A stretch of DNA of 64,000 nt from Methanomicrobiales archaeon HGW-Methanomicrobiales-2 (lineage in GTDB: Archaea; Halobacteriota; Methanomicrobia; Methanomicrobiales; Methanoculleaceae), in assembly GCA_002839645.1 (NCBI GenBank), contig PGYL01000002.1:1-64000 (forward strand), in the 5' to 3' direction. The notes below the pieces were generated by a model. It did no database searches. It worked only from the letters and a program-made list of their open reading frames with translations, and was not told the DNA's origin. Shown one piece after another: positions 2,060 through 13,105 of this stretch (position 1 is its first letter; every line of letters begins with the position of its first letter). The position numbers and the translations under genes were made by a program.

Positions 2060-3573
2060 GCAGCAACTTCGGCAGCATGCCCCTCCGCTACCGGGTCGCG
2101 ATCGACCGTGAGCAGTGCATGGAGTGCGGACGGTGCATCGATAACTGTTCCTACGGTGTCTTCCGGCGGGACGGCGACAGAATCCTGATCAACTCCCGGA
2201 ACTGCACCGCCTGCCACCGGTGCCTCACCTACTGTCCCCGGGACGCCATCATGCTCCAGGAGCATCCCTGCGATTACCGGAACCATCCGGTCTGGACCCG
2301 GGAGGTGCGGGAGTCGATCTACAACCAGGCCCGGACGGGGAAGATCATCCTCGCAGGGATGGGCAGCGTCTCAAAACTCCCGATCATCTTCGATCACCTG
2401 ATGCTGGACGCCTGTCAGGTCACCACGCCTCCGACCGACCCGCTCCGTGAGCCCGTAGAACTCCGGACCTACCTCGGAAAGAAGCCTTCGAAACTCGACT
2501 TCCGGCAGAGATCGAACGGCGATGTCGAACTCTCCACGGAACTCACACCGAACCTCATGCTCGAGACGCCGATCATGCTCGGCCACATGAGTTACGGTGC
2601 GCTCAGCCTCAACGCCCACGTGGCAATGGCCCGGGCGGCAAAGGAGACCGGCACCTTCATGGGTACCGGTGAGGGCGGACTGCATCCCGGTCTTTATCCC
2701 TACCAGGACCGGATGATCGTTCAGGTCGCTTCCGGGCGGTTCGGCGTGAACGTCGACTACCTGGAGCGGGGCGCCGCTATCGAACTCAAACTCGGGCAGG
2801 GCGCAAAACCCGGCATCGGCGGGCACCTCCCGGGAGAGAAGGTGAGTGCGGACGTCTCCAGAACCAGGATGATCCCACAGGGTAGCGACGCGATCAGCCC
2901 TGCGCCGCACCATGACATCTACGGCATCGAAGACCTCCCCCAGCTCGTCAACTCCGTCAAGGAAGCGACGGAGCGGAAGAAACCAATCTTTGCGAAGATA
3001 GCGGCCGTCAACGGCAACGCTGAGAACGTGGCGGCCGTTGCCCGTTCCGGGGTGGACGCCATCGCCATCGACGGGTTCCGGGGCGGCACCGGTGCTGCGC
3101 CGCGGGTCTTCCGCGACCACGTCGGCATCCCGATCGAGGTCGCCATCGCGACCGCCGACAGAGAGCTCCGCAAGCAGGGCCTCAGGAACGAGGTCTCTCT
3201 CATCGCCTGCGGCAGCATCCGGGAGAGCACGGACGTCGTCAAGGCGATAGCCCTCGGTGCGGACGCAGTCTACATCGCAACCGCAGCGCTCGCGGCGATG
3301 GGATGCCGGGTCTGCGGGAACTGCTACCAGGGTCTCTGTCCCTGGGGTATCGCCACCCAGCGTCAGGATCTCGTGGACCGCTTAAACCCCGACGTGGCAT
3401 CGAAACAGGTGGCAAACCTGATCCACGCGTGGACGCTCGAGATCACCGAACTGATAGGTGCGGCCGGCATCAACAGCATCGAGAGCCTGCGGGGCAACCG
3501 TGACCGGCTCCGGGGTTACATGCTGGACGAGGGGCTCCTCGAAATTCTCGACGTCAAGTCGGTGGGAGCGTGA
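2056..3573 (+). CDS. Glutamate synthase, ferredoxin-FMN catalytic subunit
   Basis: Catalytic core of archaeal glutamate synthase: reduces 2-oxoglutarate plus ammonia to glutamate on an FMN barrel. Residues about 15-65 form a 2[4Fe-4S] ferredoxin-like domain (CMECGRCIDNC at 21-31 and CTACHRCLTYC at 50-60). The FMN-binding GOGAT barrel follows, with GHMSYGALS, GGLHPGLYPY and AKPGIGGHLPGEKVS. Cysteines in CRVCGNCYQGLCPWG near residue 418 match the 3Fe-4S region. The protein is 505 residues. ATG 2056 was chosen over the longer open frame upstream because it overlaps the preceding stop and gives the conserved N-terminus. No NADPH-binding subunit is nearby; the FrhB-like gene downstream is the likely electron-entry partner. 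Confidence 0.94.
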   Translation: MSSNFGSMPLRYRVAIDREQCMECGRCIDNCSYGVFRRDGDRILINSRNCTACHRCLTYCPRDAIMLQEHPCDYRNHPVWTREVRESIYNQARTGKIILAGMGSVSKLPIIFDHLMLDACQVTTPPTDPLREPVELRTYLGKKPSKLDFRQRSNGDVELSTELTPNLMLETPIMLGHMSYGALSLNAHVAMARAAKETGTFMGTGEGGLHPGLYPYQDRMIVQVASGRFGVNVDYLERGAAIELKLGQGAKPGIGGHLPGEKVSADVSRTRMIPQGSDAISPAPHHDIYGIEDLPQLVNSVKEATERKKPIFAKIAAVNGNAENVAAVARSGVDAIAIDGFRGGTGAAPRVFRDHVGIPIEVAIATADRELRKQGLRNEVSLIACGSIRESTDVVKAIALGADAVYIATAALAAMGCRVCGNCYQGLCPWGIATQRQDLVDRLNPDVASKQVANLIHAWTLEITELIGAAGINSIESLRGNRDRLRGYMLDEGLLEILDVKSVGA

Positions 3574-8005: not shown

Positions 8006-8356
8006 ATGAACGATGCTCTGGACCGAATCACAGAGGATATATCCATCCGGGGCCAAAATATAACGACTGAATCTGGGGGTATTATCATTTCCGATACAAC
8101 GCAATTCATCGTATATACACTAGAATTCTGCCCGAATTGCGAAATACTCAAAGAGTTCCTGGCCTCCAGGGGCGTTCCCTTCGTCGAGTGCGACATGGCG
8201 TCCGCCGAGGGGCTGACGGAACTCCGCATGAACGGCGTATTCGTCCAGGAAGCACCGGTGCTGCAGAAGGGCGATGCATTCTATACATCCAGCGATCTCT
8301 TCGTTGGGGGGGCGTTCCGGGAAGACCTTGTCGCCGACCTGATCCTGGGGGCATGA
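8006..8356 (+). CDS. Glutaredoxin-like redoxin, probable NrdH-type reductant of NrdD
   Basis: Thioredoxin-fold protein with the redox pair CPNC at residues 42-45 and the cis-Pro/C-terminal glutaredoxin pattern (VQEAPVL, then LFVGGAFRED). The core of about 80 residues follows a 30-residue N-terminal extension that is unusual; the true start could lie further in, but no other good ATG/GTG exists before the fold. Its stop overlaps the nrdD start by ATGA. In Methanosarcina barkeri a glutaredoxin-like NrdH, reduced through a ferredoxin-linked disulfide reductase, is the electron donor of the class III reductase. The same job is inferred here from operon context. Confidence 0.85.
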   Translation: MNDALDRITEDISIRGQNITTESGGIIISDTTQFIVYTLEFCPNCEILKEFLASRGVPFVECDMASAEGLTELRMNGVFVQEAPVLQKGDAFYTSSDLFVGGAFREDLVADLILGA

Positions 8357-11300
8357 GGTTGACACGCAAGTCAACGCAGACGACCATATTCGGGGATTTC
8401 ATCCCCACGTTCCCGAAAGTCCGGACATCGAGGGGCTATCTCCTCGACTGGAACCGTGATCGGATCGTCAGGCAGATCGTGGAGGAGAGCCGGCTCGTGG
8501 AGGTCTTCTACGGCTACGAGGGAGCCGATGAGGAGACGGCACAGGACATCGCCCGCCGCGTCGAGAGGAAGATCCAGATGCTGGGGCTCCAGTCGCTCTC
8601 CGGCCCCCTGATCCGCGAGATCGTCAACATGACGCTCCTTGAGCGGGGGCTTACGTCCTACCGCAACGTCTGCACCCGGGTGGGAACCCCGGTCTTCGAC
8701 GCGCACCTCATCGATGTGGGCAGGGGCTTTGAAGCCCACGACAACGCCAACCTCCAGGAGAACGCCGAAACCTCGCACAAGAAGAAGGCAGACAAGATCA
8801 GCAAGGAGCAGTACCTCCTGCAGCTCCCCCCGGACCTTGCGGATCACCATCTCCGCGGCGATCTCCACATCCACGACCTGGAATACTTTGGTACTCGCCC
8901 GTTCTGTATCGATGGGAGCACAGCGATACCTGTCCGGATGGAGAACCGCATCCGGAGTATCCGCCCCGACGAACTCCCGATCGAGGGTGACGAGTGGCGC
9001 CCCGAGGACCTCTCCGCGCTCACGCCAAAGGGCTGGAGACAGGTTTCAAAGGTGACCCGCCGGAAGGTGAACCCGGGTGAGATGCTCCGGATCCGGACTT
9101 CGGGCGGGCGTTCGCTGACGGTCACGGGCGAGCACCGAATCCCGGTCCGCACCGGGGATGAGATGACGATTCGCCGTGCCGATGAGGTTCGTGCCGGCGA
9201 CGCTCTCTACAGGGTCTCCGGGACGGATACCATCCGCGGAGAGGCAATAGGGGCAATCGATCTCGTCCGGGAACTGCCGGCATCGGTGCCGGCACATCTC
9301 CTTGAGAATGTCTACGTCCGCGGTGCCCGGGATATCTTTATCGATGCGGTGCGGACCGGACGGGCCACCTCATACACCGAGATCTCGCGGGCGCTCGGCG
9401 TCGAGCACCAGAAGCAGTGGTATACGCGCGGGACCATGCCGGTAACTCTCTTTGGAGCCTTTTGCAGCCGCTATGGCGTCGAGGACTATGCCGGGGTCAC
9501 CATCGGGGTCACCGGGAGCGAACACGAACTGCCCGCTCTTCTCACGCTGACACCCGAACTCATCCGCCTTCTGGGGCTCTTCGTTGCGGAAGGCAACTAC
9601 AACGTTTCTTTAGAGGCCGGGCAGTACAACCTGGCGATCACCGAGAACTGCCAGGCACCCGCCATCCTGGCCTCAGCATGCACCACCCTGAACACGTATG
9701 CAACGATCGCCGGCGGCACTCCCGACACCACGACCATCTACGGGATCGAGGTGGAACACAACCGGGCCCTGCAGGTCTACTTCGGTGGGAAACCGGCCTA
9801 CCTGCTCTTCCGCTACGTCTTCGGCATCCCGGAGAGAGCGGCAGGCAAACGCCTCCCCTGGATCGTATACCACCTCGACGACGTGCTCCTCCACGAGTTC
9901 CTCTCCGCTCTCTTCACCGGAGACGGCTCGGCATATTATCGCCCGGAGAAATCGGACTGCATCGTCAATTATACTACTATATCACCGACCCTCCGACAGG
10001 AACTCTCTCTCCTGCTCACCACACTCGGGATGAACCCCCAGATCGTCGAACTCTACGAGGAGGAAGACCGCCCGACTCTTTACCGGCTCCAGCTCAACGG
10101 GCGGAAGAATATCGAGACGTTTGCCCGATACGCCACCTTCCTCGATGAGCGGCAGGACCACATCGACGGTTTCCTCTCTGCGGTGAAGGAGAGGCAGGGA
10201 AGAGAGCGGGAGGAGACCGTCGTCGAGATATCTCCGGCGGAGCCCACCGGCGCATACGTCTACGACCTCTTCCTCGACGGCGACGGGACCGAGGAGAGCC
10301 ATACGTTCTTCGCTTCCGACGGCCTGCTCATCCACAACTGCCAGGATTGGGACCTGCGCTACTTCTTCTACTACGGCCTGATGCCTGATGGCAACGGGAC
10401 GAAGGCGTCGGTCGCCGGCCCTGCCAAGAGAGCAGAAGTGGCGGTCCTCCACGCGGTCAAGGCGCTCGGCTCCGCCCAGACGAACTTCGCCGGCGGCCAG
10501 GGCTACTACAACTTCCTCACGTTCATGGCGCCCTTCTTCGAGGGAATGGACTACGAGGAGATCCGGCAGCTGATGCAGATGTTCGTCTATGAGATGACCC
10601 AGATGATGGTCGCCCGGGGCGGCCAGGTGGTCTTCTCATCGGTCCAGCTCTCCCCGGGGGTCCCCAACCTCTGGAAGGACAAACCCTGCGTCTACCGCGG
10701 CAAGGTCTGGGACGGGAAGCAGGCACCACTCCGGACCTACAGCGAGTTCGAGCGGGAGGTCAGGCTCCTCTTCAAGGCGCTGATGGAGGTGATGCTCGAG
10801 GGGGACTACTGGGGCAAGCCCTTCTCCTTCCCGAAACCCGAGATCAGCATCGAGCCCGACTTCCTCACCGAGAACGAGGAGTTCAATCGCGAGCACCCGG
10901 ATCTTCCCACCTATCAGGACCTCTACCTGATGACCTTCGAACTCGCGTCCAAGTACGGCACACCCTACTACGACAACCAGATCCCCGGCTACCGGGGCGC
11001 CGGGGAGGGGATTTCATGCTATCAATGTTGCGCGTACCAATTTTCCTCCCTCGCCGACGAGGACGACGAGTTCGAGGACAAACTCTACTTCCGGGAGGGG
11101 AAACACTTCTCGATGGGCTCCTGGCAGGTGATGTCCATCAACTGCCCGCGGGCGGCGTACAAGGCTGAAGGCGACCAGGAACGCCTCTTTGCCGAGCTCA
11201 AGTCGCTCATGGACATCGCCGTCGACCTCTACCGGATCAAGCGGCGGTGGATGTCCCTGATCCGTACGAACGGGCGGATGCCGTTTGCAATGCAGCGCCC

Positions 11301-11982
11301 GAAGGACCCGAACACCGGTGAACGCGGTGCGGTTGCCGTGGACCTCGAAGGGCTCGTCTACACCATCGGCGTGGTCGGCGTCAACGAGATGGTGCAGCAC
11401 TTCACCGGCCACCAGCTCCACGAATCAAAGGATGCGTTCCGTCTCGCCGTCCGGGCCATGACCGAACTCGAGATGTATTCCCGCGAACTCTCGAAGAAGC
11501 ACAACATGACGATTGCCCTTGCCCGCACGCCGGCGGAGACGACCGGCCAGCGGTTCGCGGTCGCCGATCTCCTCGACGAGCGGTTCCGGGACCACGCACT
11601 CAAGGTCATCAAGGGCGACGCCGACAAAGCGCTCGATATGCTCGGCACGACGCTCGATCTCCCCATCTATTACACCAACGGGACCCATGTCACCCCGGCA
11701 GCCCCAGTCTCGCTCACGAAACGGATCGAGATCGAGCATATCTTCTTCCCCATCGTGGACGGCGGCAACATCTTCCACGTATGGCTCGGGGAGGCACGCC
11801 CCGATCCCAGGGGGCTGATGGAAATGGCGATGAACCTCTGCCGGACGACCCAGATCGGCTACTTCGCCTTCACCCGCGACCTGACGGTCTCCTTGAAGGA
11901 GTACCGGGAGTTAAAGCCGGTGCATCCAGATCAGGGGAAGGCAGGCGGGGTCTCCCCGGCGGCAGACCGGGCGGATGCCTGA
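8353..11982 (+). CDS. nrdD: Anaerobic (class III) ribonucleotide reductase, intein-containing, tail-less
   Basis: Reduces ribonucleoside triphosphates to deoxy forms under anaerobic conditions. The precursor is 1209 residues: residues 1-184 (N-extein with an ATP-cone-like start), 185-662 intein, 663-1209 C-extein, giving about 731 residues after splicing. Family motifs include DLHIHDLEYFGTRPF, the active-site region GISCYQCCAYQF, and HIFFPIVDGGNIFH near the end. The usual C-terminal CxxC/CxxC zinc site and the RxxGY glycyl-radical loop after FAFTRDLTV are absent: the chain instead ends in a Pro/Gly/Ala-rich 30-residue tail with no Cys. No frame downstream restores them. The start at 8353 is set by overlap with the redoxin. 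The identity is firm, but activity depends on the missing radical site. Confidence 0.92.
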   Translation: MRLTRKSTQTTIFGDFIPTFPKVRTSRGYLLDWNRDRIVRQIVEESRLVEVFYGYEGADEETAQDIARRVERKIQMLGLQSLSGPLIREIVNMTLLERGLTSYRNVCTRVGTPVFDAHLIDVGRGFEAHDNANLQENAETSHKKKADKISKEQYLLQLPPDLADHHLRGDLHIHDLEYFGTRPFCIDGSTAIPVRMENRIRSIRPDELPIEGDEWRPEDLSALTPKGWRQVSKVTRRKVNPGEMLRIRTSGGRSLTVTGEHRIPVRTGDEMTIRRADEVRAGDALYRVSGTDTIRGEAIGAIDLVRELPASVPAHLLENVYVRGARDIFIDAVRTGRATSYTEISRALGVEHQKQWYTRGTMPVTLFGAFCSRYGVEDYAGVTIGVTGSEHELPALLTLTPELIRLLGLFVAEGNYNVSLEAGQYNLAITENCQAPAILASACTTLNTYATIAGGTPDTTTIYGIEVEHNRALQVYFGGKPAYLLFRYVFGIPERAAGKRLPWIVYHLDDVLLHEFLSALFTGDGSAYYRPEKSDCIVNYTTISPTLRQELSLLLTTLGMNPQIVELYEEEDRPTLYRLQLNGRKNIETFARYATFLDERQDHIDGFLSAVKERQGREREETVVEISPAEPTGAYVYDLFLDGDGTEESHTFFASDGLLIHNCQDWDLRYFFYYGLMPDGNGTKASVAGPAKRAEVAVLHAVKALGSAQTNFAGGQGYYNFLTFMAPFFEGMDYEEIRQLMQMFVYEMTQMMVARGGQVVFSSVQLSPGVPNLWKDKPCVYRGKVWDGKQAPLRTYSEFEREVRLLFKALMEVMLEGDYWGKPFSFPKPEISIEPDFLTENEEFNREHPDLPTYQDLYLMTFELASKYGTPYYDNQIPGYRGAGEGISCYQCCAYQFSSLADEDDEFEDKLYFREGKHFSMGSWQVMSINCPRAAYKAEGDQERLFAELKSLMDIAVDLYRIKRRWMSLIRTNGRMPFAMQRPKDPNTGERGAVAVDLEGLVYTIGVVGVNEMVQHFTGHQLHESKDAFRLAVRAMTELEMYSRELSKKHNMTIALARTPAETTGQRFAVADLLDERFRDHALKVIKGDADKALDMLGTTLDLPIYYTNGTHVTPAAPVSLTKRIEIEHIFFPIVDGGNIFHVWLGEARPDPRGLMEMAMNLCRTTQIGYFAFTRDLTVSLKEYRELKPVHPDQGKAGGVSPAADRADA
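8905..10338 (+). mobile_element. Intein with LAGLIDADG homing endonuclease inside NrdD
   Basis: In-frame protein intron of 478 residues, inserted between PF and CQDW of NrdD. The first residue is Cys (CIDGSTAIPV, block A). Block B is seen as SLTVTGEHRIPV with the TxxH pattern. The C-terminus is LLIHN, followed by the +1 Cys of the extein: all residues needed for self-splicing. Two dodecapeptide endonuclease motifs are present, LLGLFVAEG at about intein residue 222 and FLSALFTGDG at about 332, both with the acidic catalytic residue, so the homing enzyme looks intact. Base composition is similar to the host gene, suggesting long residence or a donor of similar GC. Confidence 0.95.
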
Positions 11983-11996
11983 CCGCGACCATACTC

Positions 11997-12001
11997 TTTT
12001 T
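11997..12001 (+). terminator. Short T run after nrdD
   Basis: CTCTTTTT just after the nrdD stop and before the DUF1786 gene; a weak archaeal termination signal, so partial read-through into the next gene is possible. Confidence 0.35.
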
Positions 12002-12067: not shown

Positions 12068-13105
12068 ATGATCGATCTGACGACCCCCCTCCTCGCCATC
12101 GATGTCGGCAGAGGCACCCAGGATATCCTGGTCTATGAGCCTGGCCGGTCGATCGAGAACAGCATCAAACTGGTCCTCCCCTCCCCGACGGTGGTGGTGG
12201 CGGCAAAGATCCGGCAGGCAACCCGGGCCGGGTGTCCGGTCTTTCTGGACGGGTTTTTGATGGGCGGCGGCGCGAACAGCGGCGCGATACAGGAGCACCT
12301 CTCACGCGGCCTTCCCGTCTACGCCACGCCGGAGGCCGCCGGGACAATCCACGACAACCCGGAAAGGGTGCGGGCGCTTGGAGTTGAGATCCGGGCCGTC
12401 CCCCCGGTGGACGCGGTGACCATCCATACCACCGACTACATGGAACCGGAACTCCGGAGGGCGCTCTCCCTCTTCGGCGTCGGTTACCCGGAGAACGTCG
12501 CTATCGCGGTCCAGGACCACGGCTACTCCCCGCACCGCAGCAACCGCATCCACCGGTTCGAACTGATGCGGGAACGGCTGGATGCCGGCGACTGGGACCT
12601 CCTCTCACTCGCTACCGACCCACCGCTCGCCGATATGACCCGGATGCAGGCAGTCCGACACCAGGCGCCGGGCGCGCTCGTCACCGACACCGGGCCGGTC
12701 GCCCTTATCGGAGCGCTCTGCGACCCTGTGGTTCGGCGCATGGCTGCGACGGGAGTAACCCTCGTCAACGCCGGGAACGGGCACACCCTCTGCTTCACTC
12801 TGAAAGGGCGGGAGATTTACGGGCTCTTCGAGCACCACACCGGCGCGCTCGATCCCGCAAACCTGCAACGCTACATCCGGCTGCTCGCTGACGGGACGCT
12901 GACCTCTGAAGAGATCTTCGACGACGGCGGCCACGGGGCCGCGGTCAGAAAACCCCTCGCTGCCGGTGCCGTGGTTGTCACCGGCCCAAACCGGCTACGG
13001 CTGCTGCCGGAGGCCTACCAGGCGGCACCCTTCGGCGATATGATGCTCTCGGGGTGCTTCGGGCTCGCGTATCTCTGGAAACGGATCAGGGAAGCGACGC
13101 TCTGA
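12068..13105 (+). CDS. DUF1786 family protein, unknown function
   Basis: 345-residue protein whose N-terminus, LLAIDVGRGTQDILVYE, resembles the phosphate-binding strand of the actin/hexokinase ATPase fold. Other Gly-rich loops, FLMGGGANSG and VNAGNGHTLCF, fit the DUF1786 family, which is sometimes labelled a pyruvate-formate-lyase-activating protein without experimental support. ATG 12068 was chosen because TGAGG lies 7 bases upstream; an in-frame ATG 30 bases earlier has no ribosome site. It lies on the same strand 85 bases after nrdD, another glycyl-radical-family gene. A functional link is only a guess. Confidence 0.75.
   Translation: MIDLTTPLLAIDVGRGTQDILVYEPGRSIENSIKLVLPSPTVVVAAKIRQATRAGCPVFLDGFLMGGGANSGAIQEHLSRGLPVYATPEAAGTIHDNPERVRALGVEIRAVPPVDAVTIHTTDYMEPELRRALSLFGVGYPENVAIAVQDHGYSPHRSNRIHRFELMRERLDAGDWDLLSLATDPPLADMTRMQAVRHQAPGALVTDTGPVALIGALCDPVVRRMAATGVTLVNAGNGHTLCFTLKGREIYGLFEHHTGALDPANLQRYIRLLADGTLTSEEIFDDGGHGAAVRKPLAAGAVVVTGPNRLRLLPEAYQAAPFGDMMLSGCFGLAYLWKRIREATL

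Follow-up and report, generated by a model that had tools for sequence, protein, structure and literature searches.

The class III ribonucleotide reductase of Methanomicrobiales is very likely a two-polypeptide enzyme with a separately encoded glycyl radical domain

Across the methanogenic order Methanomicrobiales, the core of the class III ribonucleotide reductase (RNR) NrdD, an enzyme that produces DNA building blocks in the absence of oxygen, ends without its glycyl radical domain, and the part that completes the family profile is a stand-alone domain with its own gene at another locus. The catalytic cysteines of the core and the radical glycine of the small protein are invariant, three unlinked genes, for the core, the small protein and the activase NrdG, are inherited and lost together, and both the core and the small protein are under strong purifying selection. 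We consider it very likely that the window (the whole 64,000-nucleotide stretch of DNA that we analysed) encodes the barrel chain of a class III RNR built from two polypeptides; docking of the two chains, activation by this NrdG, catalysis and the identity of the reductant are inferred.

The nrdD core gene lies at 8353..11982 on the + strand and encodes a 1209-aa, intein-containing precursor of a class III RNR that lacks the C-terminal glycyl radical domain. The protein matches the Pfam family NRDD with an E-value of 5e-130 and reaches only position 510 of the 562 in that profile (in a whole-genome search, it covers positions 1-60 and 53-510). Against NCBIfam TIGR02487 it scores 460 bits (cut-off 326), with the match running to 529 of 581. 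The last codons and the stop, at 11880..11982 on the + strand, encode a Cys-free C-terminus that breaks off at the point at which a zinc site and radical loop are expected to start. The first-pass annotation had claimed just this, and the claim held: about 31 residues follow FAFTRDLTV (...IGYFAFTRDLTVSLKEYRELKPVHPDQGKAGGVSPAADRADA), without Cys or RxxGY, and the translation stops with FAFTRDLTVSLKEYRELKPVHPDQGKAGGVSPAADRADA. A CxxC/CxxC zinc site and an RxxGY loop in the same chain are thus not met by this protein. Also upheld was the claim that no downstream frame restores the motif and that a simple indel is no explanation, because a scan for R-x-[ST]-G-Y in six frames of the whole 64 kb window found nothing.

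The active site, on the other hand, is intact, and the protein has the catalytic cysteines and finger loop by which a class III RNR barrel is recognized. The finger loop ISCYQCC (11011..11031, + strand), which carries the presumed thiyl-radical cysteines, is invariant in 30 tail-less relatives; in an alignment with five fused NrdD proteins, four have ISCYQCC and one has VSCYQCC. The conserved barrel cysteine (codon 10339..10341, + strand), the first residue 3' of the intein, is invariant in the same 30 relatives and in all five fused proteins. Since dN/dS of the core against relatives is only 0.06-0.09 and both cysteine sites are kept in all 30 tail-less cores, we infer that the reductase is most likely active, for which there are no biochemical data. 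An inactive enzyme, one of the options raised by the first-pass annotation, is opposed by these results, and another, a different radical chemistry, is not needed.

The intein (478 aa, LAGLIDADG type; 8905..10338, + strand) sits directly 5' of the conserved barrel cysteine (RPF/CQDWD). Alignment to intein-free relatives places its boundaries at CIDGSTAIPV...LLIHN/CQDWD, and profile searches of the insertion give LAGLIDADG_3 and intein matches. Several congeners (G004, G040, G084 and others) have open reading frames of about 1700 aa with an extra large insertion near NRDD position 260, which likely represents another intein, at a different conserved site. Immediately upstream of nrdD, a glutaredoxin-like (NrdH-like) gene with a CPNC motif (8006..8356, + strand) overlaps the nrdD start with its stop (ATGA). 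Its match to Pfam Glutaredoxin is weak (E 1.7e-4; 22.2 bits, just below the cut-off of 22.9), and its NCBIfam matches to NrdH (E 1e-3) and to a YruB-type family (E 1.5e-6) both fall below their cut-offs; we infer that this protein is likely the electron donor to NrdD. The gene 3' of nrdD, at 12068-13102, encodes a DUF1786 protein (E 1.6e-78). Pfam names this family 'putative pyruvate formate-lyase activating enzyme', and it has no established relation to a glycyl radical system.

To ask how general this ending is, we examined 150 genomes of the order, comprising 24 of genus g20 and 126 others. Every intact core in the sample stops at the same place: matches end at NRDD positions 510-516 of 562, with one at 524. 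An alignment of tails, a check that the first-pass annotation had proposed, shows 30 relatives ending alike, with TV[SCA]L[KRHN]xF/Y... followed by a short variable tail of 25-35 residues. In some draft genomes the core is present only as fragments. One could object that the ending is a sequencing, assembly or frameshift artefact at 11880-12000. We found no support for this and regard it as all but excluded, because 30 relatives, each assembled independently and several of them with closed genomes, have the same ending. The only full-length NrdD in the order sample is an extra copy in G001. This copy (L082, C1:589000-594000) is a complete NrdD of 569 aa that belongs to a divergent type; a radical-SAM frame lies just upstream of it, and it was likely gained by transfer.

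Searching the complete genome, as the first-pass annotation had also suggested, recovered a small RxxGY protein, an nrdG and a class II RNR, all in the genome of the window (G000). The small protein, P0001 (MNWSPEQQ...CHTCHFVVDETPCPHCGE...CPLDHCDCHHSIVEKIEYCPLCGHAVCPECGSHDVVQISRVTGYLQDVAGWNAGKQQELKDRVHYSVV), is 120 aa long and is encoded at C41:1920-2282, on a different contig from nrdD. It was found as a 131-codon frame and is the only other NRDD match in the genome. That match spans positions 503-562 (57.4 bits, cut-off 26.2), the very part that the core is without; lying on another contig, it was beyond sight in the 64 kb window. P0001 has the expected order of a radical domain, a four-Cys zinc site, CxxC-x4-CxxC (CPLC-x4-CPEC), and then R-x-x-G-Y (RVTGY...GWNAGKQQELKDR), with WNxGK...ELKDR (SRVTGYLQDVAGWNAGKQQELKDR). 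No match to the PFL-type glycine-radical family was found for it in Pfam or NCBIfam; its match is to NRDD. On the solved Prevotella copri NrdD (8p23, 743 aa), the alignment of the window core runs up to residue 676 and that of the small protein covers residues 697-737, so that, in sequence coverage, the two jointly complete the enzyme by both the family profile and this alignment. Its gene is flanked by genes for deoxyhypusine synthase and pyrF on one side (read from the sequence, without a search) and by cbiZ on the other. As a small unlinked gene encodes the radical part, the 'missing tail' represents relocation and not loss.

The small protein is itself well conserved. Fourteen diverse orthologs all keep the last four cysteines and four N-terminal ones, as well as Arg92, Thr94, Gly95 and Tyr96, R-[VI]-T-G-Y is kept in 80 of 80 collected stand-alone domains, and dN/dS against relatives is 0.06-0.13. 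Could post-translational ligation, such as trans-splicing by a split intein, unite the two chains? Cis inteins do occur in NrdD of this genus. However, neither the variable C-terminal tail of the core nor P0001 has an intein match, the small protein has a start Met of its own and a conserved N-terminus resembling a zinc ribbon, and the open frames are too tight for intein halves; this possibility is all but excluded.

The G000 NrdG (C63:22260-22955) scores 148.6 bits to TIGR02495 NrdG2 (cut-off 131.15), so the dedicated radical-SAM activase expected of a class III RNR is present. Outside g20, the core is absent only in drafts of 62-85% completeness. The small protein, about 120 aa and about 63-100% identical, is found in 123 of 126 non-g20 genomes (absent only in G136, G038 and G086; present in G061 only as a contig-edge fragment), and an NrdG ortholog is likewise found in 123 of 126 (absent only in G061, G090 and G110); all six of these genomes are incomplete assemblies (56-93%). 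Core, small protein and NrdG are retained together across 34 genera. In genus g20 (family f6, e.g. G042 and G054), which we take, by inference only, to be Methanocorpusculum, 0 of 24 genomes have an NRDD match, a P0001 ortholog or an NrdG ortholog (E<=1e-25); weak P0001 matches (E ~5e-4) in g20 frames of ~1140-1165 codons were excluded from the orthologs. Class II RNR is present in nine of nine order members tested, G000 and eight others, four of g20 among them. The three genes are mutually unlinked in G000 (contigs C29, C41 and C63) and in closed genomes such as G004, G007, G025 and G034. That an unlinked trio is lost together while nrdJ is kept is the strongest sign that the three genes form one system. 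The closed genome G034 carries two tail-less nrdD genes about 15 kb apart (C1:285076-286791 and C1:300796-302511) and one small-domain gene.

These data also bear on a rival reading, in which the tail-less NrdD is a pseudo-enzyme or regulator, the cell relies on class II NrdJ, and the RVTGY protein does something else. In its favour, a class II RNR occurs in all nine members tested, which means that dNTPs do not strictly depend on class III activity, and the small gene and the core are unlinked. Against it, the catalytic cysteines are invariant in 30 cores evolving at the low dN/dS given above, the three proteins are kept and lost jointly, and a pseudo-enzyme would have no need of an activase. 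We consider it unlikely. Of the options listed by the first-pass annotation, a radical supplied in trans, as by YfiD, is strongly supported by a conserved RVTGY protein that is inherited and lost with the core and NrdG, with action in trans remaining an inference.

Outside the order, the radical domain is mostly built in. In 295 genomes of the phylum it mostly ends NrdD frames of 690-830 aa or longer and is thus fused, and because sister lineages carry fused NrdD (~760-830 aa) the split is derived. Stand-alone homologues beside a full-length NrdD, a co-occurrence stated for the stand-alone-bearing genomes checked, were found in five g60 genomes (Methanococcoides indicated; loci L131, L132, L133 and L134), G316 (L109), G203, two genomes of f24 (Candidatus Alkanophaga; L110 and L139) and a Ratteibacteria-named MAG (L135). 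These and the Methanomicrobiales proteins share the pre-domain pattern C-x11-CPxC-x4-CPxC...SR[VI]TGY, with small differences in spacing. Beside a full NrdD, such a protein may be a YfiD-like spare part for class III RNR; this is inferred. In an unrooted tree built from 67 columns of the radical segment, nine fused archaeal domains group in a single supported clade (99/99), separate from every stand-alone. This is consistent with one old stand-alone family, but the segment is too short to date the split. A plausible order of events, again inferred, is that a stand-alone spare part came first and the built-in domain was then lost in Methanomicrobiales.

It might instead be argued that in Methanomicrobiales, too, the small protein is only a YfiD-like repair part, with the core working otherwise, without a stored glycyl radical. 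The stand-alones beside full-length NrdD in Methanococcoides, G316, Alkanophaga and the Ratteibacteria MAG fit repair in those organisms. In Methanomicrobiales, however, NrdG is conserved alongside the small protein, and the small part would be obligatory and not spare because the core there has no other radical domain. We find the repair-only reading very unlikely.

Stand-alone domains also occur in viruses. Two IMG/VR contigs encode one with an intact RVTGY and without an NrdD core, and both records may be fragments. The first, L212 (64 kb, IMGVR_UViG_3300027887_000012; domain at 2959-3303), is a tailed virus with terminase, portal and tape measure genes; the second, L211 (7.6 kb, IMGVR_UViG_3300031260_000062; domain at 2932-3363), has Sak4-like, SSB, Cas4-type exonuclease and helicase genes. 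Two matches in a plasmid collection were rejected: the one in Prevotella is an ordinary fused NrdD when its frame is read, and the one in Methanomethylovorans falls under an annotated nrdD. In a phage collection, the annotated matches inspected are nearly all nrdD, a statement that leaves out five records that lack annotation or are called hypothetical.

In the two-chain model that we favour, NrdG and SAM would generate the radical on the small protein at Gly95, the glycine of RVTGY. The small protein would then dock at the empty radical-domain site of the tail-less barrel, and the radical would pass to the finger-loop cysteine (ISCYQCC) and on to the substrate, with the coupled glutaredoxin-like protein as the probable reductant. 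A fused enzyme lets NrdG reach the glycine by flipping its radical domain out of the core (PMC12662201); with a separate chain, dissociation and docking would replace this flip. Against the model, the genes are unlinked, and structural, expression or biochemical evidence is lacking. AlphaFold gave a poor, uninformative model of the small protein over its radical segment (pLDDT ~50), and a Foldseek search of this model against the PDB gave no significant fold match, only weak zinc-ribbon matches.

A bolder reading, to which we lean slightly less than to its negation, treats the NrdD radical domain as an exchangeable subunit. It would have existed first as a stand-alone beside complete NrdD, a state that persists in Methanococcoides and Alkanophaga, with a possible function there in the repair of oxygen-cleaved NrdD; it would have become obligatory once the Methanomicrobiales core lost its own domain, and viruses of these archaea would carry it to keep or take over host dNTP synthesis. 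If the two-chain model is true, this would be a radical enzyme of DNA precursor synthesis that is naturally and obligatorily two-chain across an order, and it would have candidate repair counterparts in sister lineages and viral ones as well. Because its halves are separate natural proteins, radical-domain docking, NrdG activation and oxygen repair are directly testable. The model also corrects annotation, in which such NrdDs would otherwise pass for truncated or dead proteins.

Glycyl radical enzymes are described with radical and active site in one chain. RNR-family papers place the glycyl radical domain at the NrdD C-terminus (PMC9531940, PMC9669993), the stored radical is given as a 'glycine in enzyme' (PMC4390871), and a survey of class III RNRs for unusual radical residues returned the canonical Gly only (PMC11528403). 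Our search of the open-access literature, which did not cover subscription papers, turned up no account of a class III RNR split across a whole order. A separate radical domain already known as part of NrdD would have counted against the first-pass annotation, and this is half met: the domain exists, and no report of it turned up in that search.

The known systems nearest to the proposed enzyme each differ from it. Canonical fused NrdD of sister lineages, such as Methanococcoides, has a barrel 67-69% identical, the loop ISCYQCC, RVTGY...GWNAxKxQELxDR and an NrdG2-type activase, but its single chain has a short zinc-site segment, TVCMDDFHMMAGLKxxCENCGS, before RVTGY, whereas Methanomicrobiales encode the two parts in unlinked genes, and their small protein has an additional Cys-rich stretch at its N-terminus. 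The split class II RNR NrdJa/NrdJb (PMC9669993) likewise pairs a barrel chain with a chain bearing a C-terminal zinc-finger domain, but uses adenosylcobalamin, and its NrdJb chain carries no radical. Phage nrdD can be encoded in pieces (PMC3653736), there through interruption by introns, inteins or fragmentation, in contrast to the order-wide, unlinked genes found here. Also comparable are YfiD/GrcA and phage T4 Y06I, small stand-alone glycyl radical domains, virus-borne too, that act in trans on a barrel without its own (PMC8683613). They are the only validated spare parts, those for other enzymes being speculated (PMC8683613), and Y06I, a PFL-type spare part (PMC8683613), is a functional parallel to the viral stand-alone NrdD domains. 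The gene content of Methanomicrobiales fits such a role in trans, without binding data. However, YfiD and Y06I are PFL and not NrdD domains, and they rescue an oxygen-cleaved, normally complete enzyme, whereas here the partner never has a radical domain.
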